Source: Bradyrhizobium sp. NFR13
GTDB lineage: Bacteria > Pseudomonadota > Alphaproteobacteria > Rhizobiales > Xanthobacteraceae
Assembly: GCF_900114605.1 (NCBI RefSeq)
Contig: NZ_FOTP01000006.1
Coordinates: 124,001-188,000, forward strand
Direction of reading: 5' to 3'
Length of the DNA: 64,000 bases
The notes below the pieces were generated by a model that worked only from the letters and a program-made list of their open reading frames with translations, was not told the DNA's origin and did not search any database. Shown here piece by piece: positions 5,095-32,658 of the stretch (positions are counted from its first letter, which is position 1; every line of letters begins with the position of its first letter). A program made the translations under genes and the position numbers.

Positions 5095-5105
5095 CTGTTG
5101 CTCCT

Positions 5106-8515: not shown

Positions 8516-8520
8516 CGAGA

Positions 8521-15227: not shown

Positions 15228-15590
15228 TTACTTCGGGACGATGGCCTGTGAGTCGACCCAGATTTGCCCATCGCTTTCGCGCACCGGATAGCGTCGCAAG
15301 CCCCTGCTCGGCCAGCCCGGCGACATGCTGCCGTCTGCCAGATCGAACCAGGCCAGATGACGCGGACAGTGCAGCCGGCGATCGGCGACACGGCCAAGGC
15401 TGAGATCGGCCTGCTCATGCGGGCAGGCGCGCTCGCAGGCGTAGACCGTCTCGCCATCCCGCACGATGAGAACACCGAGGCCAGCCACATTGACGCAGAC
15501 GATTGTCTGTTCGGTCAGGCGCTCGCGCGAGCAGACCGCGACCCATCGGGCGGAATCTTCGTCATCCGCCAAGATAGGCCCGTCGCACAT
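15228..15590 (-). CDS. Rieske-type 2Fe-2S ferredoxin
   Basis: 120 residues from ATG at 15590, which lies inside the end of livF (29-bp overlap). The Rieske ligands are visible as CPH (Cys56, His58) and CPRH (Cys75, His78). There is no signal or membrane anchor, so it is a soluble ferredoxin like those feeding oxygenases. No terminal oxygenase or reductase gene is present in the window. Its overlap with the transporter genes suggests it serves the same catabolic pathway. Confidence 0.88.
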   Translation of the reverse strand: MCDGPILADDEDSARWVAVCSRERLTEQTIVCVNVAGLGVLIVRDGETVYACERACPHEQADLSLGRVADRRLHCPRHLAWFDLADGSMSPGWPSRGLRRYPVRESDGQIWVDSQAIVPK

Positions 15591-16266
15591 GCTCGTTCTC
15601 GATCAGTTCCGCTCCCGCACCGGACAGCACGACACGGCCGGACTCCAGCAGATAGGCATGATCACACATCTCGAGCGCGGCAAAGGCATTCTGCTCAACG
15701 AGCAAAACAGTCGTGCCAGCGTCACGGATCGCACGAATGATCGCAAAGGTTCGCTCAACGATATTGGGCGCGAGACCAAGCGACGGCTCATCGAACATCA
15801 CCAGGCGTGGCCGCGACATCAGCGCGCGACCGATCGCCAGCATCTGCTGCTCGCCGCCGGACAGTGTGCCGGCCGCCTGCTTGCGACGCTCGGCGAGGCG
15901 CGGAAATTCGCCATAGATGCGGTCGCGGTCCACTGCGACTTCGGATGTGTCGGAGCGCAGATAGGCGCCCATATCGAGATTCTCAGCAACCGTCATGTGC
16001 GGAAATACCCGGCGCCCCTCCGGGCAATGCGCAATGCCTTTGGCGAGCACACGCTGCGCGCCGATCCCGGTGATGTCTTCGCCGTCGAAATGCAGGCTGC
16101 CGGAGCGTGACGGGACGAGGCCGGAAATCGCGCGCAGCGTTGTGCTCTTGCCAGCGCCGTTGGCGCCGATCAGCGCCACGAGTTGCCCGGCCTTGACCGA
16201 AAGTGAGATGCCCTTGAGGGCCGAGATCTGGCCGTAGGCGCAGACCATGTCACGGATCTCAAGCAT
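15562..16266 (-). CDS. livF: Liv-type ABC transporter ATPase (LivF-like)
   Basis: 234 residues from ATG at 16266 (MLEIRDMVCAYG). Walker A GANGAGKST (34-42), signature LSGGEQ (135-140) and Walker B LVMFDEP (155-161) are intact. It pairs with the LivG-like ATPase to energise the LivH/LivM permease. It overlaps livG by 8 bp and the Rieske gene by 29 bp. The substrate is probably not branched-chain amino acids, given the neighbouring catabolic genes. Confidence 0.93.
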   Translation of the reverse strand: MLEIRDMVCAYGQISALKGISLSVKAGQLVALIGANGAGKSTTLRAISGLVPSRSGSLHFDGEDITGIGAQRVLAKGIAHCPEGRRVFPHMTVAENLDMGAYLRSDTSEVAVDRDRIYGEFPRLAERRKQAAGTLSGGEQQMLAIGRALMSRPRLVMFDEPSLGLAPNIVERTFAIIRAIRDAGTTVLLVEQNAFAALEMCDHAYLLESGRVVLSGAGAELIENEHVRRAYLGG

Positions 16267-17059
16267 GAACCGCGACCTCCTTGACCACATCCTTCGCACT
16301 CTGACCGAGATAGGCCTCGATCACCGCAGGATTCCTTCTGATGTCGTCGGGCGGCCCCTCAGCGATGATCCGTCCGTAATTCAGCACCACGATGCGATCC
16401 GACACGCTCATCACCATCGGCATGTCGTGCTCAACGAGAAGGATCGTGACACCGCTATCGCGGATCTTGCGTATCAGTTGCACGAAGGTGTGCGTCTCCG
16501 ATGCGTTCATGCCGGATACGGGCTCATCCATCAGCAGCATCTTCGGCTGCGCGGCGAGCGCCAGCGCGACGCCAACGAGACGCTGCTCGCCGTAGGACAG
16601 CGAGCCCGCAAGATCGTTGGCACGAGCTTCGAGGCCGATCCAGCGCACCAGTTCGGCGGCACGGGCGCGCTGCGCCTTCTCGGAGGCACGGGCCCGCGGC
16701 AGTCCGAGAATGGCTTCGGCAAGGCGAAGCTTGCCCTGACGGTGCAGGCCGATCAGGACGTTGTCGTAGACAGTGTCGTTGGGAAACACACTGGTGCGCT
16801 GAAAGGTGCGGATCAGGCCGAGATCCGCGATTTCATGCGGTTTCTTGCCCTTGAGGTCCGCTCCGCAATATTTCACTGCACCCTTGGTGGGCGTGAGGAA
16901 GCCGGTCATGACGTTGAACGCCGTGGTCTTGCCGGCGCCGTTCGGCCCGATCAGGCTGACGATCTCCCCTTTGTTGACATGGAAATTCATGTCCGAGATC
17001 GCGACGAGGCCGCCGAAATGGACCGCGACATGTTCGATGCTGAGTACTGTTTCGGCCAT
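16259..17059 (-). CDS. livG: Liv-type ABC transporter ATPase (LivG-like)
   Basis: 266 residues from ATG at 17059, which shares its A with the livM stop (TGATG). Walker A GPNGAGKTT (38-46), signature LSYGEQ and Walker B MLLMDEP are all present; the longer helical insertion after Walker A is typical of LivG rather than LivF. It is a cytoplasmic ATPase of the high-affinity uptake system. Confidence 0.93.
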   Translation of the reverse strand: MAETVLSIEHVAVHFGGLVAISDMNFHVNKGEIVSLIGPNGAGKTTAFNVMTGFLTPTKGAVKYCGADLKGKKPHEIADLGLIRTFQRTSVFPNDTVYDNVLIGLHRQGKLRLAEAILGLPRARASEKAQRARAAELVRWIGLEARANDLAGSLSYGEQRLVGVALALAAQPKMLLMDEPVSGMNASETHTFVQLIRKIRDSGVTILLVEHDMPMVMSVSDRIVVLNYGRIIAEGPPDDIRRNPAVIEAYLGQSAKDVVKEVAVHA

Positions 17060-18105
17060 CACGCGTGCTCCTCGACGGTGCGTTCGGAGACGGCGATGGA
17101 GGCCCGTCTGGTTCCACCGGCACGGGCCAAACCGAGTTTCGCGGCAAGCGACGGCACAATGCCGCGCGGCATGACGAACAGGATGACGATGAGCACCACG
17201 CCATAAGTGATCCACTGCGCTTCCGGCGGCATGATCGGCCGCAGGAACACCGGCAGCAGGCCGAAGATGACGCCGCCGACCACAGGCCCGGCCAGCGATC
17301 CCTTGCCGCCCGACACCACCATGATCACCATGGTCACCGTCGAGATGAAGGCGAAGACGTCGGGATCGATGATGCGGATGTAATGCGCATAGAGACTGCC
17401 CGCGGCGCCCGCGATGCCCGCAGAGATCACGGCGGCCAGTGTCAGCGTCTTCGTCACGTTAATGCCGACGGCGACAGCCAGCGTCTCGTTCTCCATCAAC
17501 CCGCGCATGGCGCGGCCATAGTGCGAGTGAACGAGGCGCGAGATCAGGAAGTACGAAATCGCGGCGACGGCGAGCACAAGATAGTAGTTGTGAAACTTGG
17601 TCTTCAGCACGAGATAACCAAGCCCTGGTAGACCGATGGTGATCGACGGAATATTGGTCAGCGCCAGCGGGCCTTGCGTGAGCTCGACCCAGTTCAGCGC
17701 CACTAGCCGCACCACTTCGGCGAACGAGATCGTGACGATGACGAAGTACGCGCCGCGCACGCTGAAGGACAGGCGTCCGACCAGATAGCCGCAGAAGCCC
17801 GAGATGACGATCGCCAGAAAGAAGCCGACAATCGGCGGCCACGGCACGTGGACGATGTGGAAATCGCCATGGATCGGGACGTCGAAGCCCAACGACGTCA
17901 GCGCGCTGACATAGGCACCGATACCGAAAAAGGCGATGTGACCTAAGCTGAGCTGCCCCGTGAAACCGAGGAGCAGATTGAGACTCATGGCACCGATGAT
18001 GAAGATGCCGGTGGTGATCAGCGCATTCAGTAGATACGGGTCCGTCAGCCACATGGGCACAGAGACGAAGAAGGCGAGACAAAGGAGCGTGACGATCTGC
18101 TTCAT
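17059..18105 (-). CDS. livM: Liv-type ABC transporter permease (LivM-like)
   Basis: 348 residues from ATG at 18105. It is strongly hydrophobic with about 9-10 membrane segments and the conserved GFTGQLSLGHIAFFGIGAY motif of LivM permeases. The final ~25 residues are a polar cytoplasmic tail. It overlaps livH by 4 bp and livG by 1 bp, so translation is coupled along the transporter genes. Confidence 0.93.
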   Translation of the reverse strand: MKQIVTLLCLAFFVSVPMWLTDPYLLNALITTGIFIIGAMSLNLLLGFTGQLSLGHIAFFGIGAYVSALTSLGFDVPIHGDFHIVHVPWPPIVGFFLAIVISGFCGYLVGRLSFSVRGAYFVIVTISFAEVVRLVALNWVELTQGPLALTNIPSITIGLPGLGYLVLKTKFHNYYLVLAVAAISYFLISRLVHSHYGRAMRGLMENETLAVAVGINVTKTLTLAAVISAGIAGAAGSLYAHYIRIIDPDVFAFISTVTMVIMVVSGGKGSLAGPVVGGVIFGLLPVFLRPIMPPEAQWITYGVVLIVILFVMPRGIVPSLAAKLGLARAGGTRRASIAVSERTVEEHA

Positions 18106-18974
18106 CCGACGCGCTCCGCTCGTGCGAACAGCCCGGTGGGTTTGAAGATCAGCACCATGATGATGATCAGGAAGCCCATGGCGTCGCGATAGCCCGACGA
18201 GACATAGCCGGCGCCAAGTTCTTCCGCCAATGCGAGAATGAAGCCCCCGATGACCGCCCCGGTGATGTTGCCGAGACCGCCGAGAATGACGATAGCGAAG
18301 GCCTTCACCGCAGCGAGATCACCCATCTGTGGGAACACGACATAGACCGGGCCAAGCAAGGCACCGGCGGCGGCGGCAAGGCTCGAACCGATGGCGAACG
18401 TGGACGTGTAGATCAGACTGACATTGACGCCCATCAGTGCGGCCGTGTCGGAATCCTGGAAGGTCGCGCGCATCGCCTTGCCGAGTTTCGTGAGATTGAT
18501 CAGTGAATAAGCCAGCACGATCAGTAACGCCGCTGCGAACAGAACGAACAGGCGCAGCCAGGAGACGGACACAGGGCCAATCACCAGCGGCGCGTCGGGG
18601 AATGGGTTGTCGATCGACTTGGCGACACCGCCCCAGATCCACAGCGCGCCAGACTGCATGGCGATCCATGCGCCGATCATCACCAGCATGGTGGTGTCGA
18701 TATCCGCGCCGCGCAGCGGCCGCAGCAGCGTGATTTCGATGGCGGCACCCAGCAGCCAGCCGGCGACGATCGCCACCGGCAGCGCGAGAAAGAAATTCAG
18801 ACCGAGCTGATGCACGACGATGAACATCATATATGCGCCGAACGTGTACAAAATGCCGTGAGTGAAGTTCACCACGTTCATGATGCCGAAGATCAGCGTC
18901 AGCCCGATGCCGAGCAGCGCATAGGTGCCGCCGAGCACAAGCATATTGACGACATGTTGCAGGAGCTGGTCCAC
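18102..18974 (-). CDS. livH: Liv-type ABC transporter permease (LivH-like)
   Basis: 290 residues from a GTG start at 18974 (MDQLLQHVVNML), with AAGGA upstream. About eight membrane segments; the motif GIGLTLIFGIMNVVNFTHG near the N-terminus is diagnostic for LivH. It forms a heterodimeric channel with LivM. A repeat element lies between it and the binding-protein gene, which may allow different expression of the two parts. Confidence 0.92.
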   Translation of the reverse strand: MDQLLQHVVNMLVLGGTYALLGIGLTLIFGIMNVVNFTHGILYTFGAYMMFIVVHQLGLNFFLALPVAIVAGWLLGAAIEITLLRPLRGADIDTTMLVMIGAWIAMQSGALWIWGGVAKSIDNPFPDAPLVIGPVSVSWLRLFVLFAAALLIVLAYSLINLTKLGKAMRATFQDSDTAALMGVNVSLIYTSTFAIGSSLAAAAGALLGPVYVVFPQMGDLAAVKAFAIVILGGLGNITGAVIGGFILALAEELGAGYVSSGYRDAMGFLIIIMVLIFKPTGLFARAERVG

Positions 18975-18989
18975 GATCTATCCTTCTTG

Positions 18990-19117
18990 GTCATTCCGGG
19001 ATTCGCTGCAGACGGCTTGCCGGCTGCAGCGGAGCCCCCGGAATCTCGGAGTAGTGAATCTCATTTCGAGGTTCCGGGTTCGCCCGCAGCTTGCGCTGCG
19101 AGCGCCCCGGAACGACG
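18990..19117. repeat. Intergenic repeat, second copy
   Basis: Starts with GTCATTCCGGG and ends GCCCCGGAACGACG, matching the outer ends of the repeat at 965-1098 with one change. It also shares the internal CCCGGAATCTC block. It sits inside the transporter operon between the binding-protein gene and livH. Such a hairpin could stabilise the upstream mRNA and weaken expression of the permease genes. Confidence 0.65.
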
Positions 19118-19126
19118 AATGTGGGA

Positions 19127-20281
19127 TCACAGATCCTTCATCACGATCTTGCCGCCGGCGATCTCGACCAGATAGACGTTCGGGAAGCTCTGGCCGCTCT
19201 CCGAGCCGGCCGGGCCCGACTTCTTGAACACGATGTCGCCATTCAGGCCCTTGACGTCGATCTTCCAGAGCGCGTCCTTGATCGCTGCGGGTTCGGCCTT
19301 GCCGGCCTTCTCGATGGCCGCCGCGATGGTGCGGATGCCGTCATAGCCACGGAAGCTCTCGGTGCAGCCGGCGAAATCGAAGCCGCGCTTCTTCCACTCA
19401 CCAATGAAGTAGGTCGTGGCTTCCGGGTTCGGCGTCTTTTCCGGCATCCATGGCAGGAACGTCGTCAGATGCATGGTGTCGTTCGCGGCGGCACCGGCCT
19501 GCGCGATAATCTGGTCCGGATTCTGCGAACCGCCTGTGGTGATGATCCGCTTCTTCAGACCGAGGGCCGCGGCCTGCTTGAAGATCAGCGTCAACTGATC
19601 AACCGCGGCCGTGATGATCACGGTCTCGGAATCCGTCGCCTTGATCTTGGCGAGCTGCGCGCTCATGTCCTGGGCCGACTGGTCCATGGTCTCGACAAGG
19701 CCAATGGTGATGCCCTTCTCCTTCATCATCTTGCTGAAGTCCTCGGCGGTGCCGCGGCCCCAATCATTGTTGATGACGAGAAAGTCGACCTTCTTCAGTG
19801 CCAGTTTGTCGACGATATTCTTGAAGGCGGCCGCCTCGACGAAGGACGGCGGCGAGATACGGAACACGTAGGGATTGCCCGACGTGGTGATCTTGCTGGC
19901 CGACGAGGTCTCGACGACCATCGCGGTTTCATATTCGACCAGCTTCGGCATCACCGCGAGGGTGAGGCTGGACCCCCAGGCGCCCAGCATCACCGGCGTC
20001 TTGTCGCGGGTGATCAGTTTCTCGGCGACGGCAGCAGCCTCGGTCGGGTTGCTCTTGTTGTCTTCGATAACGAGTTCGATCTTTTTGCCGAGCAGGCCGC
20101 CCTTGGCGTTGATCTCGTCGGCGGCGATCTTGGCGCCGTTAACGACATAGGTGCCCGACGCGGCAAAGGCGCCCGTCAGCGGCTCATTGACGCCGATCTT
20201 GATGGTTTGCGCGGTCGCAGCGCTGCTCAGGAAAGCAATTGCCAGGGCCGTCGCCGAAGCTGCCTTGATGGTCCGTATCAT
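19127..20281 (-). CDS. Periplasmic binding protein of Liv-type ABC transporter
   Basis: 384 residues from ATG at 20281, where a signal peptide begins (MIRTIKAASATALAIAFLSS, cleavage near ATA-QT). The mature start IKIGVNEPLTGAFAASGTYV is the usual opening of the LivK/peripla_BP_6 fold, with SNPTEAAAVAEKLITRDK typical of lobe 1. It captures the transported compound in the periplasm. Its place directly after the molybdenum hydroxylase genes (79-bp gap) suggests the ligand is the hydroxylase's substrate or a precursor; this is inference. Confidence 0.93.
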   Translation of the reverse strand: MIRTIKAASATALAIAFLSSAATAQTIKIGVNEPLTGAFAASGTYVVNGAKIAADEINAKGGLLGKKIELVIEDNKSNPTEAAAVAEKLITRDKTPVMLGAWGSSLTLAVMPKLVEYETAMVVETSSASKITTSGNPYVFRISPPSFVEAAAFKNIVDKLALKKVDFLVINNDWGRGTAEDFSKMMKEKGITIGLVETMDQSAQDMSAQLAKIKATDSETVIITAAVDQLTLIFKQAAALGLKKRIITTGGSQNPDQIIAQAGAAANDTMHLTTFLPWMPEKTPNPEATTYFIGEWKKRGFDFAGCTESFRGYDGIRTIAAAIEKAGKAEPAAIKDALWKIDVKGLNGDIVFKKSGPAGSESGQSFPNVYLVEIAGGKIVMKDL

Positions 20282-20360
20282 GTGGTCCTCCAGTGTTACG
20301 CCGATGAAACTTGCGCAGTCCAAACCTCGCCGTTCGCATGTCCAAGCGAACGTCGATCTC

Positions 20361-21563
20361 TCACGCTGATCCTCCGCGCCCGGCGAAGCGACGAACGAAA
20401 CGCGTCGCGCGCTCACGCAGGAGACCGAGAATCAGCGAAACACCATTCAAATCGGCGGCCGCCGGCGGCGCCGACGTCGCATCGCCCGACAGACGGCGAT
20501 CGAGATTGCCGGCGAATTCCGCGACCAGCCGCGCGGCGAGATCCCGCACCAACCCACTGCGGCCGACTTGTGCCAGCATGCCTGTGAGGCTGTAGCCGAT
20601 GGTCAACTCGACCTGCGTCGATGCACCGTCATCAAGGGGTACCAGCCGGTAGCGGATTTCGCCCTGTGTCGTGGAGCGGCTGCGCTGATCATTGCCGACG
20701 CCGAGAATGCGGCCGGAGAGATTGGCTTCGTCGCGCTCGACACGCGCAGCTCCGTTGAAGTTCGCGGAGATGGGACCGATCTTGACGCGGATCGCACCTT
20801 CGACGCGCTCCGGCCTAGGCGTGCCGACCAGCGTGGCGCCCGGCAGACACGAGGCGACAGCCGCGATATCATCGAACAGCGCGAAGACTGTCGCCGATGG
20901 ATGCGCGACGGTGAATTGCTGATCCAGCGTCGTGGACGGTGTGAAGTCGGGGATCTCAAGCGGCGCGATGACCTCAGTAGCGTCGCGCGTCGCAGACTTT
21001 GCAACTGCCGACTTCTGCGCACTGACGCAAACATTGTGTCCCGCCCCCGCCGGCCCCAACACCTTGCGCCCGCCATCCGGCTCCGGCGCTATATCGCGGG
21101 CACGGCGTTCGGCGATCACGGATTGCACGGCGCGAACGATACCGACGTAACCTGTGCAACGACAGAGATTGCCTGACATGCCGATGCGGATCTTCTTCTC
21201 GTCGGCATCCGGCAGGCGCTTCACGAGATCACGGGCCGAGACCAGCATACCCGGCGTGCAGTAGCCGCATTGCAAGGCGTGTTCGCGCGTAAAGGCGGCG
21301 CGTAATTCGCCAGCAATCTCGTCGTCATCGAGGCCCTCGATGGTGGTGACATCAGCGCCATCGCAGGCCACTGCATAAGTAATGCAGGAGCGCGTCGGCA
21401 CGCCGTCGACCAGGATTGTGCAGGCGCCGCAGACGCCATGTTCGCAGCCAAGATGCGTGCCGGTGAGATCCAGCGTATCGCGCATCATGTCGGCAAGGCT
21501 GGTGCGGGGCTCGACGGCCTTCTGGACTACCCGCTTGTTGACGGTGAGCTCTACCGAATTCAT
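20361..21563 (-). CDS. Molybdenum hydroxylase 2Fe-2S subunit fused to a CoxG-like domain
   Basis: 400 residues. Residues 1-150 are a complete CoxS-type small subunit: plant-type 2Fe-2S ligands Cys40, 45, 48, 60 and the second cluster Cys99, 102, 134, 136. After a ~50-residue linker, residues about 205-345 form a CoxG/SRPBCC domain (TVAHPSATVFALFDDIAAVASCLPGA, then AIRVKIGPISANFNG). The C-terminal tail (SLILGLLRERATRFVRRF) is amphipathic and basic, as expected for a membrane contact. CoxG proteins have been proposed to tether CO dehydrogenase to the membrane or carry quinone to it; fusion would fix that partner to the electron exit of the enzyme. It overlaps the FAD subunit gene by 4 bp. Confidence 0.88.
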   Translation of the reverse strand: MNSVELTVNKRVVQKAVEPRTSLADMMRDTLDLTGTHLGCEHGVCGACTILVDGVPTRSCITYAVACDGADVTTIEGLDDDEIAGELRAAFTREHALQCGYCTPGMLVSARDLVKRLPDADEKKIRIGMSGNLCRCTGYVGIVRAVQSVIAERRARDIAPEPDGGRKVLGPAGAGHNVCVSAQKSAVAKSATRDATEVIAPLEIPDFTPSTTLDQQFTVAHPSATVFALFDDIAAVASCLPGATLVGTPRPERVEGAIRVKIGPISANFNGAARVERDEANLSGRILGVGNDQRSRSTTQGEIRYRLVPLDDGASTQVELTIGYSLTGMLAQVGRSGLVRDLAARLVAEFAGNLDRRLSGDATSAPPAAADLNGVSLILGLLRERATRFVRRFAGRGGSA

Positions 21564-22396
21564 GCCGCAGCCTCCGCAACGGCGCGGCGCAGCACCGTGA
21601 CATGGATGTGCCGGTCGGCAGCGTCGCTCATGCCGGCTTTCGACAGCAGATTATCGGCGACCCGTGCATCGAATTTCGTCCCGAAATCGCTGGTGATACG
21701 GCCGCCAAACAACTCTTCGGCACTCTCGACGATGATGGGCGCGGCCTCGACTGCGCCGATCACGACGCGTGCCTTGCCGGCTTCGGGGTCGATCAGCACC
21801 GCGCCGATGGCATGGGCGAACTCACCGGTCTTGCGGCAGCTCTTCACATAGCCCCAGCGCGCCGACGCAGACATCACTGGCACGCGAACAGCTTCCAGCA
21901 TTTCGCGGGGCTGCAGTACGCTTTCCAGCGCACCCAGCATGAAATCCTTCATCGCCACACGGCGCGCTCCCTTGGCGCTGCGCAGCGACAGCGTCGCGCC
22001 AAGTGCGGCAAAAGTGGAGACCCAGTCCGCCGACGGATCGGCATGGCTGAGCGAACCGCCGACGGTGCCGCGGTTACGCACCGCGCGATAGGCTATTGCT
22101 GACGCCACGCGCTGCATCGCGCCGCGGGTGACATCGGGAATGCGACCGTCCTCGATATCGGCATGGGTGACGCAAGCACCGATCACCAGCTCATCGCCGG
22201 TGACTTCCACATGCTTCAGTTCAGCGAGTCCGGTGATGTCGACGATCGTATCGGGCGCGACCAGACGCAGATTCAACATCGGCCCGAGCGACTGGCCACC
22301 AGCCATGATCTTCACAACGCCATCGGTGCTGGCCATCACGGCCAGTGCCGAAGCGATGTCACGCGGACGCTCATAGGCGAAAGGCGCCGGTTTCAT
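21560..22396 (-). CDS. Molybdenum hydroxylase FAD subunit (CoxM-like)
   Basis: 278 residues from ATG at 22396. FAD-binding motifs AGGQSLGP (32-39) and TVGGSLSHADPS (111-122) are intact. This medium subunit passes electrons from the 2Fe-2S clusters to an acceptor. It overlaps the large-subunit gene and the small-subunit fusion by 4 bp each, so the three subunits are translationally coupled. Confidence 0.93.
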   Translation of the reverse strand: MKPAPFAYERPRDIASALAVMASTDGVVKIMAGGQSLGPMLNLRLVAPDTIVDITGLAELKHVEVTGDELVIGACVTHADIEDGRIPDVTRGAMQRVASAIAYRAVRNRGTVGGSLSHADPSADWVSTFAALGATLSLRSAKGARRVAMKDFMLGALESVLQPREMLEAVRVPVMSASARWGYVKSCRKTGEFAHAIGAVLIDPEAGKARVVIGAVEAAPIIVESAEELFGGRITSDFGTKFDARVADNLLSKAGMSDAADRHIHVTVLRRAVAEAAA

Positions 22397-24774: not shown

Positions 24775-24825
24775 CGACGGACTCCCGGCGTCTTCCGGAT
24801 TGACTAGCGAGATGGCTTGCAAACC

Positions 24826-26103
24826 TCAGGCCGCGACGGCCTGAGGCAGGATCGGAGCGACGGCGTCGTGACGGGTGCCGCCGCGCAGGCAGAAGGCCGG
24901 CTGCAGCAGGCCGTCCGACACCGTCTTGGTGTCCTCGTTGTCGCGCAGGATGAACTTGCCGGGGATCTGCGAGAGCACCGAAACGTCGGCGTCCATGCCA
25001 ACCTTGAGCGAACCGATGGTGTCGGAGAGGCCGATCATCTTGGCCGGGTTTGACGTCACCATCGGCACCACCTGTTCCAGCGTCAGGCCGAGCGCCATCA
25101 TCGAGCTCATCGCCTGCACCAGGCTGAACTTGGCCTGGCCCTTGAACGGATGGTTCTCGTCGTCCTCATGTTCTTCCGGCGTGCCGGCAGGCGCCGGCAT
25201 CGATGTGTTGTAGCCATGGATATCGGCGCCGAGCGTATTGGGCACGATGCCGGCCGCGATCGCCTTCTTCGCCAGGCGATAGGAGAAGTGGCTGCCATGG
25301 CCGACATCCACCTTGAGGCCGCGATCGATTGCCGCCTGGATCACCGGATGCACCTCACCTTCGCGATTGACGAAGCCACCGGGATGCCGCGTGAACGGAT
25401 GGGCCAGCACATCGCCTTCCTTGAGCAGCGGGATCACGCGCTCGAGGATCGTATCGACATCCTCGCCATTGGTGCCCGACTCCGGCAGGCCCCAGAGCTG
25501 GCCGAAATGCACATAAACCGGCAGTTCGGCGCGCTTGCCGATCTCCGCTGCCATCTGGATCACCTTGATGCCCCAGCGTGCGAAGCCGCCGATTTCCGCA
25601 TGCGCCTTGATGCCGCGCACGAGATCGCGATTGGCAACCGCCGACTTCACCGTGGCGTCGATGTCGACGCAGTCGGGGCTGTAGAGATTGGGATAGAGAT
25701 GGCCTTCGAGGCCGCCGACCAAATAGGCCGAGAGAAACGCGTAGACGCGCGACTTCGCGGGCTCGGCGATGAAGTGACGAAAACCGGGAAGCGTCATGCA
25801 GGACGGCCCACCCTGATCGACCAGCGCGGTGACGCCCGATTGCACGCCGACCATGTCGGGATTCATGCCGAAGCGGCCGGAGACATATTGAAAGACATGA
25901 CCATGCGTATCGATCAGGCCCGGCAGCACCAGCTTGCCGGTGACGTCGATCACGTCGCGCGCGCTGGTCGGCAGAATATCGGCCTGCACAGCGGCGATCT
26001 TGCCGTTGCGAATGGCAACATCCTTGATGCCATCAACACCGGCGGCGGGGTCGATAACACGACCACCGCGCAGCAGCAGGTCGAACGAGGCAGTAACGGA
26101 CAT
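24826..26103 (-). CDS. Amidohydrolase-superfamily metalloenzyme (dihydroorotase/deacetylase type)
   Basis: 425 residues from ATG at 26103. Binuclear metal ligands can be placed: H67xH69 in DTHGHVF, carboxylated Lys166 in VRGIKAH, His199, His235 and Asp294. The N-terminal beta-sandwich (LLLRGGRVIDPAAGVDG) is usual for the superfamily. The family hydrolyses cyclic amides, imides or N-acyl bonds. It is the first gene of the hydroxylase/transporter series and faces the MarR gene across a perfect palindrome, so it is probably induced by the pathway substrate. Confidence 0.85.
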   Translation of the reverse strand: MSVTASFDLLLRGGRVIDPAAGVDGIKDVAIRNGKIAAVQADILPTSARDVIDVTGKLVLPGLIDTHGHVFQYVSGRFGMNPDMVGVQSGVTALVDQGGPSCMTLPGFRHFIAEPAKSRVYAFLSAYLVGGLEGHLYPNLYSPDCVDIDATVKSAVANRDLVRGIKAHAEIGGFARWGIKVIQMAAEIGKRAELPVYVHFGQLWGLPESGTNGEDVDTILERVIPLLKEGDVLAHPFTRHPGGFVNREGEVHPVIQAAIDRGLKVDVGHGSHFSYRLAKKAIAAGIVPNTLGADIHGYNTSMPAPAGTPEEHEDDENHPFKGQAKFSLVQAMSSMMALGLTLEQVVPMVTSNPAKMIGLSDTIGSLKVGMDADVSVLSQIPGKFILRDNEDTKTVSDGLLQPAFCLRGGTRHDAVAPILPQAVAA

Positions 26104-26143
26104 GGCGGTCTCCTTGCGTTCCGGCGGACATTAGAGGTCCACC

Positions 26144-26169
26144 AAAATACGAAGCATACTTCGTATTTT
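26144..26169. promoter_or_regulatory. Perfect palindrome, probable MarR operator
   Basis: AAAATACGAAG, 4 nt, CTTCGTATTTT: 11-bp arms with no mismatch, 40 bp upstream of the amidohydrolase start and 95 bp upstream of the MarR start. A TACGAAG...CTTCGTA inverted repeat in a divergent promoter is the classic MarR operator layout. The repressor role is inferred from position. Confidence 0.7.
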
Positions 26170-26263
26170 ACAAAAGCAAAGTCCGTGCCATAGGATTGCA
26201 GTGCGGCAACTTTTCAGAGCGCTTGCACCATGCGAGAAGCGGCCGATAACAGGAGACACCACC

Positions 26264-26758
26264 TTGCCGAGAGCGAAGCCGCGGCGCGATCAGGCCGCCC
26301 ACAAGCCCTGGCCACTGGAACAGCGGCCCGGATTTCTGATCCGCAGGCTGCACCAGATCCATGTCGCGCTGTTCCATGAGGCGTGCAGCGCCTTCGAGAT
26401 GACGCCGCTGCAATACAGCCTGCTGTCGGCGCTGGCGGTGCGCGGGACTGCGGATCAAACGACCTTAGCCGCTGATATTGCTCTGGATCGCACGACGACG
26501 ACGGGCGCGCTGAAGCGGCTGGAAGCGCGCAAACTGGTCGAGCGTCCGGTCAGCGACGACGATCGTCGCGCCCGCGTCTGTCGGCTGACTCCCGCCGGCG
26601 CGGCACTGCTGAACAAGATCGAAGCCGCCGCCCGCGACGCGCATCTCGCGACCCTTGGCAGCCTGTCGAAGCCGGAACAGGCCACCTTCATTGCGCTGAT
26701 GCAGCGCATTGTCGCAGAGAACACCACTCGCAATGCGGCGCCCGATCTCGCGGAATAG
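26264..26758 (+). CDS. MarR-family regulator of the catabolic cluster
   Basis: 164 residues from a TTG start at 26264 with AGGAGA at 26251-26256; an upstream start at 26201 lacks such a site. The winged helix-turn-helix is clear (TTLAADIALDRTTTTGALKRLE) with wing RPVSDDDRRARVCRLT. It sits between the two minus-strand gene series of the catabolic island and diverges from the amidohydrolase gene. It most likely represses the hydroxylase/transporter operon until a pathway metabolite binds. Confidence 0.88.
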   Translation: MPRAKPRRDQAAHKPWPLEQRPGFLIRRLHQIHVALFHEACSAFEMTPLQYSLLSALAVRGTADQTTLAADIALDRTTTTGALKRLEARKLVERPVSDDDRRARVCRLTPAGAALLNKIEAAARDAHLATLGSLSKPEQATFIALMQRIVAENTTRNAAPDLAE

Positions 26759-26836
26759 GCGCACCAAGGAACAGTTTCGCTAGATTAGAATGGCTATAAA
26801 TTAATCAGGCTGACCGCCTTAGAGGCAGACAGATAG

Positions 26837-27172
26837 TCAGGGTCGCAGCACCAACCGCTCACCTGGCGGCGCAATTTCGGTGACGAGATCGCGGATCAGC
26901 GCTTTCTTCGGCAGCGGCGCCAGGGTGGTCGTCCCCTCTTTCAGGCGCACCGTGCAGGCGTAATCGACCTTGCCGTCAATCAGCATCATGCATTCCTTGC
27001 ATGCATTGGCATTGATACAGGCGAAGCGGAACGCCAGCGACGGGTCCATGCTGCGACGCACTGCGCGCAGGCCGTCGAGGATGGACTGGCCGTGCTCGAA
27101 GGGAATATCGAACGTGTCCTGACGCGGCGTTTCACCGAAGGCGCCGCGCTGAATGCTGAGGGTCGCCTTCAT
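26837..27172 (-). CDS. Short SdhB/FrdB-like 2Fe-2S protein
   Basis: 111 residues from ATG at 27172, overlapping the flavoprotein by 4 bp. It has only the N-terminal ferredoxin domain of SdhB: ligands Cys52, Cys58, Cys61 and Cys73 (AC...CKEC...AC), close to the SdhB spacing. The C-terminal domain with the 3Fe-4S and 4Fe-4S clusters is absent; normal SdhB is about 230-260 residues. It ends in a natural stop, with no remnant frame downstream. It probably takes electrons from the partner flavoprotein and hands them to a soluble acceptor. Confidence 0.8.
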   Translation of the reverse strand: MKATLSIQRGAFGETPRQDTFDIPFEHGQSILDGLRAVRRSMDPSLAFRFACINANACKECMMLIDGKVDYACTVRLKEGTTTLAPLPKKALIRDLVTEIAPPGERLVLRP

Positions 27173-28890
27173 GCGGCAGCCTTTCCGGTGGTGGCCACGA
27201 TCTTGCGCAGGGTCATGTCGCTGCCCGACAGCGCCACGATCTGGTTGACACTCCATGCGTCGTCGAGACCGAGATGATCGTCGCGCTGATGCGCGCCGCG
27301 GCTTTCGGTGCGTGCGAGTGCGGGGACGGCGACGGATTGTGCAACGGCGAGCATGTTGCGGAGGTCGAGCCAGTCGGCCAGCACGGGATCGAAGCTTTCC
27401 GCTGACGCGAACGGCGTATCGCCGATATCGGCCTTCAATTGCGCGATGGCCGATATCGCCGCACGCAATTTGGCATCGGTGCGGAACGGGCCGACATCAT
27501 CGGCCATCGCCGCCTGCAGTTTCACCATGACCGCTGCGGGATTAGGCGCATCACGTTTGCTGGCACTGCGCAGCAGATCGAGTGCCGGTTTCGCCGCTTC
27601 AGTGGACCACACGGAGGCCCCCTGCTTCGCGCGCTCCGCCGCGCTACGGCCCGCTCGCGCGCCGAATACAAAGGCTTCGGTGATCGCATTGCCTGACAGC
27701 CGGTTGGCGCCATTGGCGCCGCCGACCGCTTCGCCGCAAGCGAACAGTCCTGGCACGCCGGTCGCCATCATCTCGTCCACGCGAATGCCGCCCATATGAT
27801 AATGCGCGATCGGCGCGACCTCGACAGGACGCTGCGCGAGATCAATGCCGTTCTCCGCCAGCCGATCCACCACCGGCCCGAACGCCTTGCGTATCTCGGC
27901 TTCGGGCACATGCTGGAAGCTCAGATAGGCGCCGCCGGAGGGGCTACCGCGGCCGGCCTCGACTTCCTTGGTGATCGCATAGGTGGCAAGATCGCGCGTC
28001 AACACATAAGTGCCATCGCTGCGCTCGTCGCGCGTCGCATAATCCTCTTCGAATTCGCGCATCTCTGAATTGAGCAGCTTGCCGCCGAGCTTGTAACGGA
28101 ACGGGTCCCACATGATCGGATCCATGCCGACGAGGCGCGGCGCGAGATGGCCGATCGGGAAGAACTGCACGAACTCCATGTCGATCAGCTCGGCACCTGC
28201 GCGCAAGGCAAGCGCATAACCATCGCCGCCCATATTCGACGATGCGCTGTTGCGCCGATAGAGCCCGGTGAGCCCGCCTGTCGCGATCACCACCGCCTTC
28301 GCCGCCAGCGTCGCCGCCTGCCCGGTCGGCAGATGCAGTGCCGTCGCGCCGCAGGCTTCGCCATCACGCAATGCGATATCGACGATGGTGAGATCGCCTA
28401 TACGCCGGATGCCGCTCGCATTGTTCAGCTGCGTGCGCAGCGTCTTCGACACCGCCGGACCCGTCGAGAGAAAATCCACATAGGCGCAGCGTGGCCGATC
28501 ATGGCCCGGCGCCTGCGCCTGCTTGATATGGCCGTCCTCGCGCGCCCAGCCGACCTTCCACGCATCCATCTCGCGCAGCCGCTGCGGGCCGTCTTCGCAC
28601 AGCAGCGCGGCAAGACGCTCATCGCAAAGCCCGCGGCCGGCGGCTAGCGTATCCGCGAAATGATGCTCCCAGTGATCCGGCGTCTGCTCGCCCAGCGCTG
28701 CCGCCACCGTCATCTGCGCCATGACGGTGGCGCCACCGCGCCCGATCAGGCTGCGATCGGCGAGGATCACCGACGCGCCCCCCTTCGCGGCTTCCAGCGC
28801 GGCATACATACCGGCACCACCGGCACCGATCACGAGGACATCGGATTCGAGATGGGTGGGAACCGAAGTATCGGGAGAAGGTGATGTCAT
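27169..28890 (-). CDS. Fumarate reductase/succinate dehydrogenase-like flavoprotein
   Basis: 573 residues from ATG at 28890. The FAD-binding Rossmann motif VIGAGGAGMYAALEAAKGG is at about 20-38. HYHMGGIRVDE and GLFACGEAVGGANGANRLSG are the SdhA/FrdA/aspartate oxidase signatures around the active site and flavin. Its only partner is the mini iron-sulfur protein; no SdhC/D anchor genes are present. It may oxidise or reduce a C-C bond of a pathway acid. It shares more with soluble FrdA-like and adenylylsulfate reductase-type flavoproteins than with TCA-cycle SdhA. Confidence 0.85.
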   Translation of the reverse strand: MTSPSPDTSVPTHLESDVLVIGAGGAGMYAALEAAKGGASVILADRSLIGRGGATVMAQMTVAAALGEQTPDHWEHHFADTLAAGRGLCDERLAALLCEDGPQRLREMDAWKVGWAREDGHIKQAQAPGHDRPRCAYVDFLSTGPAVSKTLRTQLNNASGIRRIGDLTIVDIALRDGEACGATALHLPTGQAATLAAKAVVIATGGLTGLYRRNSASSNMGGDGYALALRAGAELIDMEFVQFFPIGHLAPRLVGMDPIMWDPFRYKLGGKLLNSEMREFEEDYATRDERSDGTYVLTRDLATYAITKEVEAGRGSPSGGAYLSFQHVPEAEIRKAFGPVVDRLAENGIDLAQRPVEVAPIAHYHMGGIRVDEMMATGVPGLFACGEAVGGANGANRLSGNAITEAFVFGARAGRSAAERAKQGASVWSTEAAKPALDLLRSASKRDAPNPAAVMVKLQAAMADDVGPFRTDAKLRAAISAIAQLKADIGDTPFASAESFDPVLADWLDLRNMLAVAQSVAVPALARTESRGAHQRDDHLGLDDAWSVNQIVALSGSDMTLRKIVATTGKAAA

Positions 28891-28973
28891 GGTCAGGCGA
28901 GTGTCTCTTCAAACAAAGGCGTTGTCAGCAACCATCGCCGTGCCAGAACCATGCCACACGGCATCTCCCGTCG

Positions 28974-30137
28974 TCAGATCTCCGTCCGCAAAATAGCCCG
29001 CGCCAGCGTCTGCGCACGCGGAACGATACTCTCAATATCCAGCCACTCCAGATCGGTATGGACATTGCCACCGACCGGTCCGAGCCCGCAGAGTGTCGGC
29101 GTGCCAACGCTGGCGGTGAAACCGGAATCTGCACAGCCGCCGGCGAATTCGCCGGTCAGCGTGGTGAGACCCGAGTCGACAGCCGCCGCCTGATAGGCCT
29201 CGAACATCGCTTTGGCTGCAGCGTCCTGCACCAGCGGCAAAAATTCACCGTTGATGTGCAGCTTTGCCGTCGTGCCCGGCACGGTCGACGTCGCGATGAT
29301 CTTCTCGATCGCCGCCATGATGGTCGCGCGATCGGCCGGCTCGATGTAGCGGAAATCGATCTCGCCTTCCGCATGCGGCGCCGTGGTGTTCACCGACTGG
29401 CCGCCCGACACCAGGCCGACGTTCAGCGTGATGCCCTTGTCCATATCCGTCAGCGCATGAATCTGCACGATCTTGTGCGCGAGCTCACCGATGGCGCTGA
29501 TGCCGACCGCAAAGTTATTGCCGGAATGGGCGGCCTTGCCGAACACCTCGAAACGCATGAATACGCCGCCCTTGCGGCCGGTGGTGATATTGCCGGTCGG
29601 ACGCCCGGGCTCGGAATTATAGACCGCGCGGGCGGCGCGGCCTTCGCGCTCGATGATCGGCCGCGATGAGCGCGATGCGATTTCCTCGTCGCCTGTGATC
29701 AGCAGCTTGATTGGACACGGCGCGGCATCGAACTTCTTCAGCGCCGCAGCAACGAACACATTGATGACGACGCCCGCCTTCATGTCGGCAACGCCCGGAC
29801 CGTGGGCCAGGTTGCCTTTAATGGTGAAAGGACGCTTGGCCACTTCGCCCTTCGGAAACACGGTATCGCGATGGCCCATCAGCAGGATCGGCTTCTCGTT
29901 GCTGCCAGGCTTGGTGATCAGCCCATGCACCGCATCGCCATAGACATCATGGGGCTCGCGCCAGGTCTCGATGCCGTATTCGGCGAAGTGCTGTTCAAAA
30001 CGAGCGCCGACGGCATCGACGCCTTCCTTGTCGAAGGAGCCGGAATCGATGTTCACGACGTCGCGCAGCAGGTCGATCATCGGCTGCTGTTGCGAGGCCA
30101 GCCATTCGATGATTTGCGTTTCGGTATTTTTTGACAT
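28974..30137 (-). CDS. M20-family metallopeptidase (glutamate carboxypeptidase type)
   Basis: 387 residues from ATG at 30137 (AAGGA upstream); a GTG six codons earlier is less likely. Metal and catalytic motifs are intact: GHRDTVF, HGPGVADMKAG, TGDEEIAS, and SEPGRPTG. The family cleaves amide or carbamate bonds of N-acyl amino acids, carboxypeptidase G2 being the model. A dimerisation domain with GKAAHSG lies in the middle. No signal peptide, so cytoplasmic. It is between the GMC oxidoreductase and flavoprotein genes and probably in one operon with them. Confidence 0.88.
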   Translation of the reverse strand: MSKNTETQIIEWLASQQQPMIDLLRDVVNIDSGSFDKEGVDAVGARFEQHFAEYGIETWREPHDVYGDAVHGLITKPGSNEKPILLMGHRDTVFPKGEVAKRPFTIKGNLAHGPGVADMKAGVVINVFVAAALKKFDAAPCPIKLLITGDEEIASRSSRPIIEREGRAARAVYNSEPGRPTGNITTGRKGGVFMRFEVFGKAAHSGNNFAVGISAIGELAHKIVQIHALTDMDKGITLNVGLVSGGQSVNTTAPHAEGEIDFRYIEPADRATIMAAIEKIIATSTVPGTTAKLHINGEFLPLVQDAAAKAMFEAYQAAAVDSGLTTLTGEFAGGCADSGFTASVGTPTLCGLGPVGGNVHTDLEWLDIESIVPRAQTLARAILRTEI

Positions 30138-30180
30138 GAGTTGTCCTTCGGTCACTCTTGGGCGCTTGCGCTGCGCGTTC

Positions 30181-31764
30181 TTACTTCGCCATCGCCACGG
30201 CAGGCGCGACGCTGTCCTGCCTGCGCATCATCATCCGCGCAATGGCCTCGCCGATCACTACGGTGGTGAAGTGGGTGTTGGCGCGGCAGTCCGACGGCAT
30301 GATCGACGCATCGGCCACGCGCAGGCCCTTGAGACCCTTCACCGTGCCATCCGGATTGACCACGCCACCGGTGTCCTTGAAGCCGGTCATGCGGCAGGTG
30401 CCGGCGGCGTGCTGGATATCGCCGGTCTCACGGCGCAGCACGGCTTCGAGCTCGCGCGTCGGCAGCGCCGCTGCCTGCGTCAGCGTCATGTCGGTATCGG
30501 TGAGGCGGATCCAGTCAGCGATGCCAGCGAGCGCCGGCTGCGCGGTGATCACGGCAAGCCGCTTCACGGCATCGACCATCCGCAGCATGTCGCGGGGGTC
30601 AGCCAGCATGTTCTCCTCGACGATCGGGTCGATCGACGCATCGGTCGATGCGAGCTTCAGCGTGCCGCGCGAGAAGGCGTTGAACAGACCGGCACCGATG
30701 GCACCAGGATTGCCGATGCCACGATGATTAAACGCGATCAGGATCATGTCGCGCTTGCCGCCCTCAGCCAAACCTGACGAATAGGTGACGCAGCAATTGG
30801 TGTGGCGGGTGTCCTTGTCCGTCGGCGCAACGGCGTCCTGCAGCTTGATCGTGGTGCGGAATAGCGGATGGTCGAAGAAATTCCGGCCGACGGGCAGATC
30901 GCATTCCACGGCAATGCCCATGTCCCTCAGCTCGTCCGCCGGACCGACGCCCGAACGCAGCAGGATCGCCGGGCTGTGGATCGAGCCACCACATAGCACG
31001 ATCTCGCGCGCGCTGATTTCCTGCGTGCCCTGCCCCTCGAAGTGCACGATCACACCGGTCGCCTGACCGTCCTTGAACACAACGCGATCGACCAGCGCAT
31101 GACCGCGGATTTCGAGATTGGCGCGGGCGCGTGCCGGCTCAAGATAGCCTTCATTGGTGGAAATACGGCGCAGATCGCGGCTGTTGATCGGATAGCAGGC
31201 AACGCCTTCGCCATCCGGCCCGTTGACGTCGTCGCACCACGCGTAGCCGGAGGCCAGCGCCGCATCGCGCAAGCCCTTGTCGATCGGTCCCCATGTCTGC
31301 GGCGGCGCGCGATAGACCGGCAGCGGACCACCGCGGCCATGACCGGGCCTGTCGCCGAATTCCAGATCGTCCTCGATCGCCGAGAATAGCGGCATGATCT
31401 CCTTGGCTGACCAGCCGGTGCACCCCAGCGACGCCCATTCGTCGAATGCGTCGGCAACGCCGCGGATCGCGATCTGGCCGTTCATCATCGACGAACCGCC
31501 GAGGCCCTTGCCCCGCCAATAGAAGCGCTGGTCCTGCCCGGCAACGCGGCGCGAATGCAGCTGCGGCCACTGCCACTTCTCCTGAAATTCGCGCTGGTGA
31601 ATGATCGGAATCGGGTTCGGCGTGGTCACTTCCCAGGGCGCATCCGCCGCGCGCCAGTCAAGGCCGGCCTCCAGCAGCAGCACACGTGTCGCGGGATTTT
31701 CAGAGAGCCTGGCGGCCACGGCAGCGCCGGCAGATCCACCGCCGACGACGATCACATCATACAT
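30181..31764 (-). CDS. GMC-family FAD oxidoreductase
   Basis: 527 residues from ATG at 31764. The N-terminal FAD motif VVGGGSAGAAVAARL and the GMC signature GGSIHSPAILLRSGVG are present. The active-site His pair lies in QHAAGTCRM and CRANTHFTTV. The family oxidises alcohols such as choline, glucose or aryl and polyethylene glycol alcohols. It is the first gene of the four-gene series ending with the mini iron-sulfur protein. Substrate cannot be read from the sequence. Confidence 0.9.
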   Translation of the reverse strand: MYDVIVVGGGSAGAAVAARLSENPATRVLLLEAGLDWRAADAPWEVTTPNPIPIIHQREFQEKWQWPQLHSRRVAGQDQRFYWRGKGLGGSSMMNGQIAIRGVADAFDEWASLGCTGWSAKEIMPLFSAIEDDLEFGDRPGHGRGGPLPVYRAPPQTWGPIDKGLRDAALASGYAWCDDVNGPDGEGVACYPINSRDLRRISTNEGYLEPARARANLEIRGHALVDRVVFKDGQATGVIVHFEGQGTQEISAREIVLCGGSIHSPAILLRSGVGPADELRDMGIAVECDLPVGRNFFDHPLFRTTIKLQDAVAPTDKDTRHTNCCVTYSSGLAEGGKRDMILIAFNHRGIGNPGAIGAGLFNAFSRGTLKLASTDASIDPIVEENMLADPRDMLRMVDAVKRLAVITAQPALAGIADWIRLTDTDMTLTQAAALPTRELEAVLRRETGDIQHAAGTCRMTGFKDTGGVVNPDGTVKGLKGLRVADASIMPSDCRANTHFTTVVIGEAIARMMMRRQDSVAPAVAMAK

Positions 31765-31967: not shown

Positions 31968-32138
31968 TCAGACAGGATCGCCGGGCTCCTTCGCAGGCGG
32001 ATCGTCATCAAGAATGGCGCGCCAACCTGCGCCGTCGAGATCATCGAACTGGCCTGATCTCAGCGACCACATGAAGGCCCACAGACCGAGCAACCCGAGC
32101 GCGAGCGCCAGCGGCACGAGGACGACGAGGGACTGCAT
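31968..32138 (-). CDS. ccoS: cbb3 oxidase assembly protein CcoS (FixS)
   Basis: 56 residues, easily missed because of size. ATG at 32138, 8 bp after the ccoH stop. A single N-terminal membrane helix (SLVVLVPLALALGLLGLWAF) is followed by FMWSLRSGQFDDLDG, the CcoS signature (W-x3-SGQ[FY]DDLD). CcoS is required for cofactor insertion into cbb3 oxidase. It normally follows the copper ATPase gene ccoI; here it directly follows ccoH. Confidence 0.93.
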   Translation of the reverse strand: MQSLVVLVPLALALGLLGLWAFMWSLRSGQFDDLDGAGWRAILDDDPPAKEPGDPV

Positions 32139-32146: not shown

Positions 32147-32647
32147 CTATTTCAGCACAAGGCGGTTCTTCGACAGGAACATGCGCTGTCCACCGGCCTC
32201 GCCTTCAAGCACCAGATCCCATAGTCCCGGCGCAAGTTCGGCGACCTTGCCGCGATAGAGCACACCGCCAGCCCTGACGAGCTCAACCGGCCGGTCGGCG
32301 CGGCGATCGGCCGGCCTCTCCAGCCGCCCGGTGAAGGTCAGCCCCGCAATCGGATTGCCGTTACGATCGCGCGCCTCGACACGGACGGCGGCATCACCTG
32401 CAGCATCGCGCTCCACATGCGCGCTGACCTTCCAGCCCCGACCGCTCTGGCCGCGCGCGGCCTCGATCTCGTTGCCGTAAGCGAGGCTTGCTGTGTAGGG
32501 ACTATCCACCTCGACCCCCGGCAGCGTCTCCAGCGCGAATTTCACCATGACGATATTGACGCCAATGATCATGCCGAAAAACAAGACCAGGCAGATCAGA
32601 ACGAACCGGCCAGTGATCGGACGAGACGCGGCAACGAAGGCACTCAT
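32147..32647 (-). CDS. fixH: cbb3 oxidase assembly protein CcoH (FixH)
   Basis: 166 residues from ATG at 32647 with GGAG upstream; a GTG five codons earlier overlaps the ccoG end. One N-terminal membrane helix (FVLICLVLFFGMIIGVNIVMV) is followed by a periplasmic domain with the family segment YTASLAYGNEIEAAR and a C-terminal beta-sandwich. FixH stabilises the assembling oxidase. Gene order ccoG-ccoH is as usual. Confidence 0.92.
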   Translation of the reverse strand: MSAFVAASRPITGRFVLICLVLFFGMIIGVNIVMVKFALETLPGVEVDSPYTASLAYGNEIEAARGQSGRGWKVSAHVERDAAGDAAVRVEARDRNGNPIAGLTFTGRLERPADRRADRPVELVRAGGVLYRGKVAELAPGLWDLVLEGEAGGQRMFLSKNRLVLK

Positions 32648-32658
32648 GTTGTTCTCCT

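Follow-up and report, generated by a model that had tools for sequence, protein, structure and literature searches.

The window analysed here, a stretch of 64,000 nucleotides from Bradyrhizobium sp. NFR13, carries a block of catabolic genes at positions 15228-31764, on both sides of a MarR-type regulator gene. We interpret this block as a junction of separable modules and give this reading a probability of about 0.6. Module B (15228-26758) would be a widespread operon for the catabolism of an N-heterocycle or cyclic amide under its own MarR, and modules C (26837-28890) and A (the GMC-M20 pair, 28974-31764) would be its neighbours by rearrangement. The anatomy of the block, its conservation and a palindrome restricted to module B are read from the sequence, and N-heterocycle catabolism appears to be the best explanation of the gene content of B.

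Organization of the block

Domain families were assigned with Pfam and scored further with NCBIfam models and Protein Data Bank (PDB) matches. Several gene starts are those of the gene finder. The window genome (6.2 Mb) is denoted G000, the 18 genus genomes are G000-G017, and L numbers are the loci that were opened. An earlier sequence-only reading had described two gene series around one MarR gene, and Pfam finds all the gene families it named:

15228-15590, minus strand: Rieske-type ferredoxin, module B (PF00355; best NCBIfam model AndAb, 54 of 150 bits, under cut-off)
15562-16266, minus strand: LivF-type ATPase, module B (PF00005; start by gene finder)
16259-17059, minus strand: LivG-type ATPase, module B (PF00005, PF12399; start by gene finder)
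17059-18105, minus strand: LivM-type permease, module B (PF02653)
18102-18974, minus strand: LivH-type permease, module B (PF02653)
19127-20281, minus strand: periplasmic binding protein (sbp) of Leu/Ile/Val-binding fold, module B (PF13458)
20361-21563, minus strand: Mo-hydroxylase small subunit (moS), 2Fe-2S domains fused to CoxG, module B (PF01799, PF06240)
21560-22396, minus strand: Mo-hydroxylase FAD subunit (moM), module B (PF00941)
22393-24774, minus strand: Mo-hydroxylase large molybdopterin subunit (moL), module B (PF02738, PF20256)
24826-26103, minus strand: metal-dependent amidohydrolase, module B (passes the curated cut-off of NCBIfam family NF006689, 428.5 versus 371 bits)
26144-26169, no strand: candidate MarR operator, perfect inverted repeat of 11 bases with a gap of 4 bases
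26264-26758, plus strand: MarR repressor candidate, module B (PF01047; open reading frame 26201-26758)
26837-27172, minus strand: mini 2Fe-2S protein (fer2) of 111 amino acids, N-terminal SdhB/FrdB-like domain only, module C (PF13085)
27169-28890, minus strand: FrdA/SdhA-like flavoprotein (frdA), module C (PF00890, PF02910)
28974-30155, minus strand: M20 peptidase/amidase, carboxypeptidase G2-like, module A (PF01546; 1CG2, 137 bits)
30181-31764, minus strand: GMC oxidoreductase, module A (PF00732, PF05199)

The MarR gene does lie between the two arms, and the earlier picture is refined by its orientation: it is on the plus strand, divergent from the amidohydrolase gene and convergent with the 2Fe-2S gene. 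Its start is likely the TTG at 26264 behind an AGGAG motif. The mini-2Fe-2S gene is confined to 26837-27172 by the gene finder, and the open reading frame 26837-27256 merely extends it upstream. The overlapping or abutting arrangement of the downstream genes was also borne out. With gene-finder starts, the overlaps are 4 bases each for moM/moL, moS/moM and livM/livH, 1 base for livG/livM, 8 for livF/livG and 29 for Rieske/livF. In the upstream arm, GMC, M20, frdA and fer2 are co-directional with gaps of 25, 83 and -4 bases.

Conservation of module B

We counted the neighbours of the best 80 of 407 amidohydrolase-encoding loci in the genome collection (up to 10 kb, at least 45% identity, truncated contigs counted), some of which are contigs of genomes that were also searched separately. 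marR and moL were each found at 77 of the 80 loci, moM at 74 and moS at 73. The transport genes followed, with sbp and livH at 66 each and livG, livM and livF at 65 each, and the Rieske gene was found at 48. The upstream genes are rare near the amidohydrolase (frdA, fer2 and m20 at 2/80 each, gmc at 1/80), and one of each of these counts comes from a single contig of Tardiphaga robiniae LMG 26467 (L067). Module B occurs in Bradyrhizobium, Rhodopseudomonas, Tardiphaga, Xanthobacter, Azorhizobium and Methylobacterium, and it is a widespread, mostly alphaproteobacterial catabolic operon.

These are common genera of soil and plants, and should the substrate prove to be an N-heterocycle from either source, an entire conserved unit of transport and catabolism would acquire a function. 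We found no description of operon B among the listed titles and abstract openings of the open-licence papers searched, although older or subscription work may exist. The sequence-only reading had known no described pathway with the exact gene set of the block; the same literature gave none, but the set turned out to be largely an adjacency of separable units.

A palindrome that marks module B

The palindrome AAAATACGAAG-CATA-CTTCGTATTTT lies at 26144-26169, between the MarR and amidohydrolase genes, and a promoter-like match on the plus strand (26167-26196) overlaps its edge. With up to 4 mismatches in 16 positions, the palindrome core was present within 260 bases upstream of the amidohydrolase gene in 77 of 79 loci and absent in L132 and L134; L117 was excluded because it has no upstream sequence. 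Random stretches of the same loci passed this threshold in 101 of 14,663 draws, partly as second copies. The exact pattern occurs in 28 of 296 family genomes, all with the amidohydrolase gene within 3 kb, whereas the reversed control occurs in none of the 296. G000 has a single exact site. Methylobacterium radiotolerans has the palindrome with 2 mismatches.

No inverted repeat of this type stands ahead of the GMC gene in the window, and no site with up to 2 mismatches was found in the 20 frdA or M20 context loci (L196-L215). Second copies with up to 3 mismatches are present in 34 of the 80 amidohydrolase loci. In 28 loci they precede an NCS1-type permease gene (up to 2 mismatches), in five (L069, L071, L084, L101, L108) a nitroreductase-family gene or an unassigned stretch, and only in L127 a GMC gene, with three mismatches; this last GMC protein is 32% identical to that of the window. 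The extra copy in L069 and L084 (about 8050-9000, minus strand) is 240-320 bases before a gene of 277 amino acids, for which the nitroreductase family was tested in L069 only.

The palindrome is confined, in the sequences compared, to module B plus a permease gene in Bradyrhizobium. Since the exact copy in the genome is single, the core recurs in nearly all loci and none precedes the GMC gene, the candidate operator marks B only. The regulon of the window MarR most likely comprises B and its own gene and leaves out the upstream genes. The operator marks the downstream arm alone, which counts against the earlier picture of two arms around one MarR gene, and its position on one side speaks against shared regulation. 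One sharply defined candidate operator together with one binding protein would make the inducer and the ligand accessible by direct assay.

Separation of the modules within the genus

The amidohydrolase is encoded in 16 of the 18 genus genomes, frdA (E<=1e-130) in nine, as two fragments in G014, and M20 (at least 81% identity) in 16. G005, G006, G008, G012, G013, G015 and G017 have the amidohydrolase without frdA at this threshold; the G006 and G015 assemblies are 84-85% complete. G010, which is 99% complete, has no amidohydrolase match and carries the row fixNOPGH-GMC-M20-S9hyd-(MarR2)-porin (L215). The row GMC-M20-S9hyd-MarR2-porin of G013 (L208) is about 2 Mb away from the amidohydrolase operon (L040) on one contig. 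S9hyd is directly behind M20 in both genomes. The window has these neighbours of module A on the other side of B:

13856-15085, minus strand: alpha/beta hydrolase (S9hyd; PF00326)
13263-13814, plus strand: second MarR (MarR2; PF01047)
11391-13058: porin

The boundary drawn around the block by the sequence-only reading therefore differs from the units of relatives, in which S9hyd, MarR2 and porin directly follow GMC-M20 (G010, G013). MarR2 adjoins S9hyd and the porin also in G005, G010, G011 and G013. The amidohydrolase operon of G005 adjoins S9hyd-MarR2-porin, and this genome has no frdA and no M20 above 49% identity. Modules B, C and A are contiguous in 5 of the 18 genomes (G000, G001, G002, G009 and G016). 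About 4.5 kb of other genes separate MarR from the 2Fe-2S gene in G011, and B and C are on separate contigs of fragmented assemblies in G003, G007 and G014. GMC-M20 or M20 was found without C in several genomes.

A and C appear to neighbour B through rearrangement. When the junctions were aligned, the m20 ends matched among G010, G013 and the window and the stretches beside S9hyd did not, so the alignment marks no insertion point or direction of events. The sequence-only reading had placed both arms in one pathway and had named parts kept independently in relatives as what would refute it. The gene-neighbourhood comparison finds such independently kept parts, and the test of whether the arms stay together in relatives failed. 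We rejected a single island for this separate distribution of its parts. The modular outcome cautions that neighbouring co-directional genes need not be one pathway.

Mo-hydroxylase of module B

All parts of a xanthine-oxidase-family hydroxylase are present in module B (PF02738, PF20256, PF00941, PF01799, PF00111). The best PDB match of moL is quinoline 2-oxidoreductase (1T3Q, 470 bits, nearly full length), a member of the same family, whereas the small subunit of B differs from that enzyme in its CoxG fusion. The CoxG domain would also fit an operon for aerobic CO dehydrogenase (CODH) or for an aldehyde/glyceraldehyde dehydrogenase, and the CODH and glyceraldehyde dehydrogenase subunit models are among the highest in NCBIfam. 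However, all of those models are below their cut-offs (552 of 950, 528 of 790 and 461 of 991 bits), and the best CODH match of moL in the PDB has 436 bits. The CoxL test failed (460.5 of 991 and 552 of 950 bits), and moL has the loop PYRGVARTG where we would expect the active-site Cys motif of form I CODH. The linked amidohydrolase and Liv transporter also misfit CO oxidation. A dehydrogenase operon of this kind is very unlikely, and we rejected CODH itself by the sub-cut-off models, the PDB ranking and the loop.

Plasmid records of Variovorax and Paracoccus contain related clusters with fused 2Fe-2S-CoxG subunits, a Rieske oxygenase, another amidohydrolase, an alpha/beta hydrolase and MarR. 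The identities to B are 53 and 52% (moL) and 39 and 39% (MarR) in the Variovorax clusters, and 55% (moL) and 37% (MarR) in the Paracoccus cluster. The Mo-hydroxylase subunits of B are 53, 51 and 46% identical to those of one Variovorax cluster, which was compared in place of the Alcaligenes faecalis JQ135 proteins themselves. In the Variovorax cluster, the other amidohydrolase is of family PF04909 and a 2,5-dihydroxypyridine dioxygenase is present; the Paracoccus cluster has a maleate isomerase. This gene content is that described for picolinate degradation (PMC10142695). According to the same source, the pic cluster of JQ135 has a three-subunit dehydrogenase (picA1A2A3) and a picR gene, and a title cited there names PicR a MarR family repressor (PMC10142695).

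Compared with the pic cluster as outlined there, B similarly has a three-subunit Mo-hydroxylase and a MarR (39% identity to that of the pic-type Variovorax cluster), and pic-type clusters also carry Liv transporters. Unlike the pic cluster, B has an NF006689 amidohydrolase and is without oxygenase subunits, a PicC-type (PF04909) gene and 2,5-dihydroxypyridine genes. A search of 15228-31764 gave a Rieske ferredoxin only; at E<=0.001, neither oxygenase subunits nor a PF04909 gene came up. The homology of B to the proven PicA is best regarded as indirect.

B might still feed picolinate into the 2,5-dihydroxypyridine pathway as a plain pic pathway with scattered genes. This would agree with the homologous Mo-hydroxylase and MarR and with NicX homologues elsewhere in G000, one of them near a NicC-like monooxygenase gene. 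The lack of a Rieske oxygenase or PF04909 gene in B and its different amidohydrolase argue otherwise, as does the moL identity in plasmid records, which is 52-55% in pic-type clusters versus 65-76% where the amidohydrolase co-occurs. We consider this explanation unlikely. A separate cluster of G000 (L275, G000:C16:236000-255900) combines Liv genes with a NicC-like monooxygenase (58%) and a NicX-like gene (42%); it is a candidate for a pyridine pathway and has no link to the window.

Amidohydrolase and proposed route

Residues H67, H69, K166, H199, H235 and D294 of the amidohydrolase are invariant in 23 sequences and align to the same residues of 2OGJ. We take them to be the metal ligands (HxH, Lys, His, His, Asp). 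The structural model is weak, with a predicted local distance difference test (pLDDT) score of 66, but its fold search ranks 8WZY, 8JE0 and 2OGJ first, in agreement with the sequence. These solved NF006689 members share the fold and the ligand positions at 22-27% identity; unlike them, the amidohydrolase of B is linked to a Mo-hydroxylase. The fold matches of the family include dihydroorotases, allantoinases and hydantoinases.

The following route, from MarR binding and the class of substrate to each single reaction, is inferred. The Liv-type transporter would import an N-heteroaromatic or cyclic-amide compound. The quinoline- or picolinate-type Mo-hydroxylase would hydroxylate the ring carbon adjoining the nitrogen to give a lactam, with the CoxG domain helping assembly and the Rieske ferredoxin carrying electrons, and the metal-dependent amidohydrolase may then hydrolyse the lactam or amide. 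MarR on the 26-base palindrome would repress both directions until a pathway ligand releases it. The earlier proposal of an N-containing ring or cyclic amide thus stands, conditionally, for the downstream arm through the 1T3Q match, the pic-type homology and the amidohydrolase folds; it does not extend to the upstream arm.

Variable neighbours of module B

Extra genes accompany B in other genomes. HpxZ and an amidase are encoded beside the Mo-hydroxylase in Azospirillum argentinense. In this species and in A. brasilense, the transporter and amidohydrolase genes are separated by a gamma-glutamyltransferase-family gene, and 2,5-dihydroxypyridine genes lie on the opposite flank. A DUF1116 gene is downstream of the B orthologues in Caballeronia and Paraburkholderia and upstream of moL in Pacificitalea. 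By Pfam, the Caballeronia DUF1116 protein is AllG (PF06545), an oxamate carbamoyltransferase subunit, and HpxZ and amidase genes then follow. Some distant relatives thereby add oxalurate/oxamate genes of the allantoin type to B. The families identified in the window block include neither HpxZ nor AllG, and no genome-wide search for them was made. Operons of the Xanthobacter and Methylobacterium types have an alpha/beta hydrolase gene inserted after the amidohydrolase gene; in the PDB this hydrolase matches a lipase best and, less strongly, kynurenine formamidase among others. The extra neighbours favour the opening of an N-containing ring to amide or formyl fragments, and they agree on no single substrate.

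Mo-hydroxylase orthologues of 73-76% identity were also observed beside coenzyme F420 genes in Sinorhizobium meliloti R28 pSymA (L268), G018 (L300) and G024 (L301). The F420 genes are annotated in L268, identified as CofC and CofD by hidden Markov models in L300, and a look-alike in L301. In L268 and L301, the neighbourhood further includes a TIGR03619-type LLM oxidoreductase and an ArgE/DapE deacylase.

A bolder version of the N-heterocycle reading would make B an undescribed oxidative-hydrolytic route for a small N-heterocycle. The Mo-hydroxylase would produce a cyclic imide-like lactam, and the amidohydrolase would open the ring without a ring-cleaving dioxygenase. In some relatives, HpxZ, amidase and AllG would finish an oxalurate/oxamate-type product, and the F420-paired Mo-hydroxylase (pSymA, G018, G024) would be a second ring-opening solution for one substrate. 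This version is speculative and, in our estimate, quite unlikely.

Weighing the modular reading

Several observations count against our preferred reading of separable modules with B as an N-heterocycle operon. The first group concerns separability. Of the nine genus genomes that encode frdA, eight have the frdA-2Fe-2S pair next to M20, and in the ninth, G014, the pieces lie on other contigs. With this adjacency and their co-directional genes, A and C may be one transcript in the window. In a moL tree of 15 rows, the genomes in which frdA adjoins B or lies 4.5 kb away fall in two separated branches, so this arrangement arose, was lost or moved at least twice; moL is no species marker. A functional link between modules would also agree with frdA-fer2 about 8 kb from the amidohydrolase gene in Enterovirga (L134), with M20 pieces beside MarR in Methylobacterium (L143), and with the order moL-frdA-fer2-moM-moS in G271 (L207).

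The second group concerns regulation and substrate. Six more palindrome sites with 2-3 mismatches in G000 are not above the reversed control (7 versus 8 per strand). A search for the palindrome in the B versions of Azospirillum, Caballeronia, Paraburkholderia and Pacificitalea gave no site, and regulation therefore differs there. The amidohydrolase was not matched in the L268, L300 and L301 stretches, where the Mo-hydroxylase has the F420 neighbours. The NF006689 amidohydrolases also go by the name cog3964, and one cog3964 relative is reported to hydrolyse an acetyl ester rather than a cyclic amide. The binding-protein model (pLDDT 71) matches amino-acid binders first and aromatic-acid binders too, and its structure did not narrow the ligand. 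Finally, the extra neighbours of B diverge among an NCS1 permease with a formamidase-family gene, oxalurate/oxamate genes and 2,5-dihydroxypyridine genes, and in G000 the surroundings of the NCS1 orthologue are those of a catechol meta-cleavage-like cluster.

The separability points bear on the alternative of one two-armed pathway, in which the GMC, M20 and FrdA-like enzymes share a compound with the Mo-hydroxylase and the amidohydrolase. The contiguous arms in five genus genomes and their proximity in a sixth, as well as the frdA-fer2 pair within the homologous Mo-hydroxylase operon of L207, would fit it. M20-type deacylases are also encoded near the Mo-hydroxylase in S. meliloti and G024, although their best NCBIfam models differ from that of the window M20. 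On the other hand, the modules are apart in many relatives and the operator is on one side only. We regard a shared pathway as decidedly unlikely. Within the genus, A and C form a group, and the whole upstream arm may be a single unit there, which would favour the sequence-only reading.

The second palindrome copies suggest another alternative, namely that B handles a nucleobase- or hydantoin-like compound with the NCS1 permease as importer in Bradyrhizobium. The second operator is directly before the permease gene in the 28 loci (family assigned by Pfam for L076 alone and for the rest from their shared N-terminal sequence), and a formamidase-family gene then follows in L076. The PDB matches of the permease are the hydantoin permease Mhp1 and cytosine permease, and NCS1 adjoins MarR in Tardiphaga G014 and G017. 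However, the 28 loci are close relatives, no second exact operator was seen in G014 and G017, and the NCBIfam NCS1 score is 159 versus a cut-off of 353. The G000 orthologue is on another contig, and its meta-cleavage-like surroundings weaken the nucleobase reading. A nucleobase- or hydantoin-like substrate imported in this way is rather unlikely, and we rejected NCS1 as proof of a nucleobase substrate on account of that cluster. The permease gene concerned (L277 10103-11440, G000:C10) is beside catechol 2,3-dioxygenase and LigK-type aldolase genes.

Modules A and C in other genomes

Among the 296 family genomes, frdA (E<=1e-130) was found in 59 and M20 (E<=1e-100) in 71. The GMC-M20 pair is also present in G133, G248 and G017 (L210-L212), with GMC in two pieces in G017, and M20 is without GMC in G065, G119 and G085 (L209, L213, L214). 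The best PDB matches of GMC are 4UDP and 6F97, 5-(hydroxymethyl)furfural oxidase, with 247 and 245 bits. The link between A and B rests on adjacency and on the M20 pieces near MarR in the one Methylobacterium contig. The M20 gene of this contig (Methylobacterium sp. WL119, L143 4200-5500) is related to that of the window, adjoins MarR and is split over two reading frames.

The mini-2Fe-2S gene adjoins frdA in relatives. Outside the genus, this pair occurs with Liv genes in L199 and with a UbiD-type decarboxylase and other Mo-hydroxylases in L053, L203 and L204 (UbiD by Pfam in L203 only, with a similar start in L204). We opened 15 of the 50 frdA carriers outside the genus (59 less 9; L053-L055 and L196-L207, two contigs under 7 kb), and 6 of the 15 have Mo-hydroxylase subunits near frdA. 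Such linkage was rejected as strong evidence, as 14 genomes had between 9 and 70 hits each for these common enzymes; PF20256 large-subunit matches number 20 in G000 and 70 in its relative G119. A link of C to Mo-hydroxylases is plausible, and C may be an accessory redox pair.

Flanking genes of the window

Past module A, a FixS match (32004-32132) starts 14 bases past FixH (32147-32662, minus strand), so that, unlike in fixGHIS, the two are not separated by a FixI gene; FixI was not searched for otherwise. A second FixS match is on contig C6. Downstream of the block, the window carries genes of an NAD-type formate dehydrogenase at 1312-6677 (FdhD, alpha subunit, NuoF-like), and genes sharing start sequences with these are also beside the G005, G011, G016 and G001 copies.

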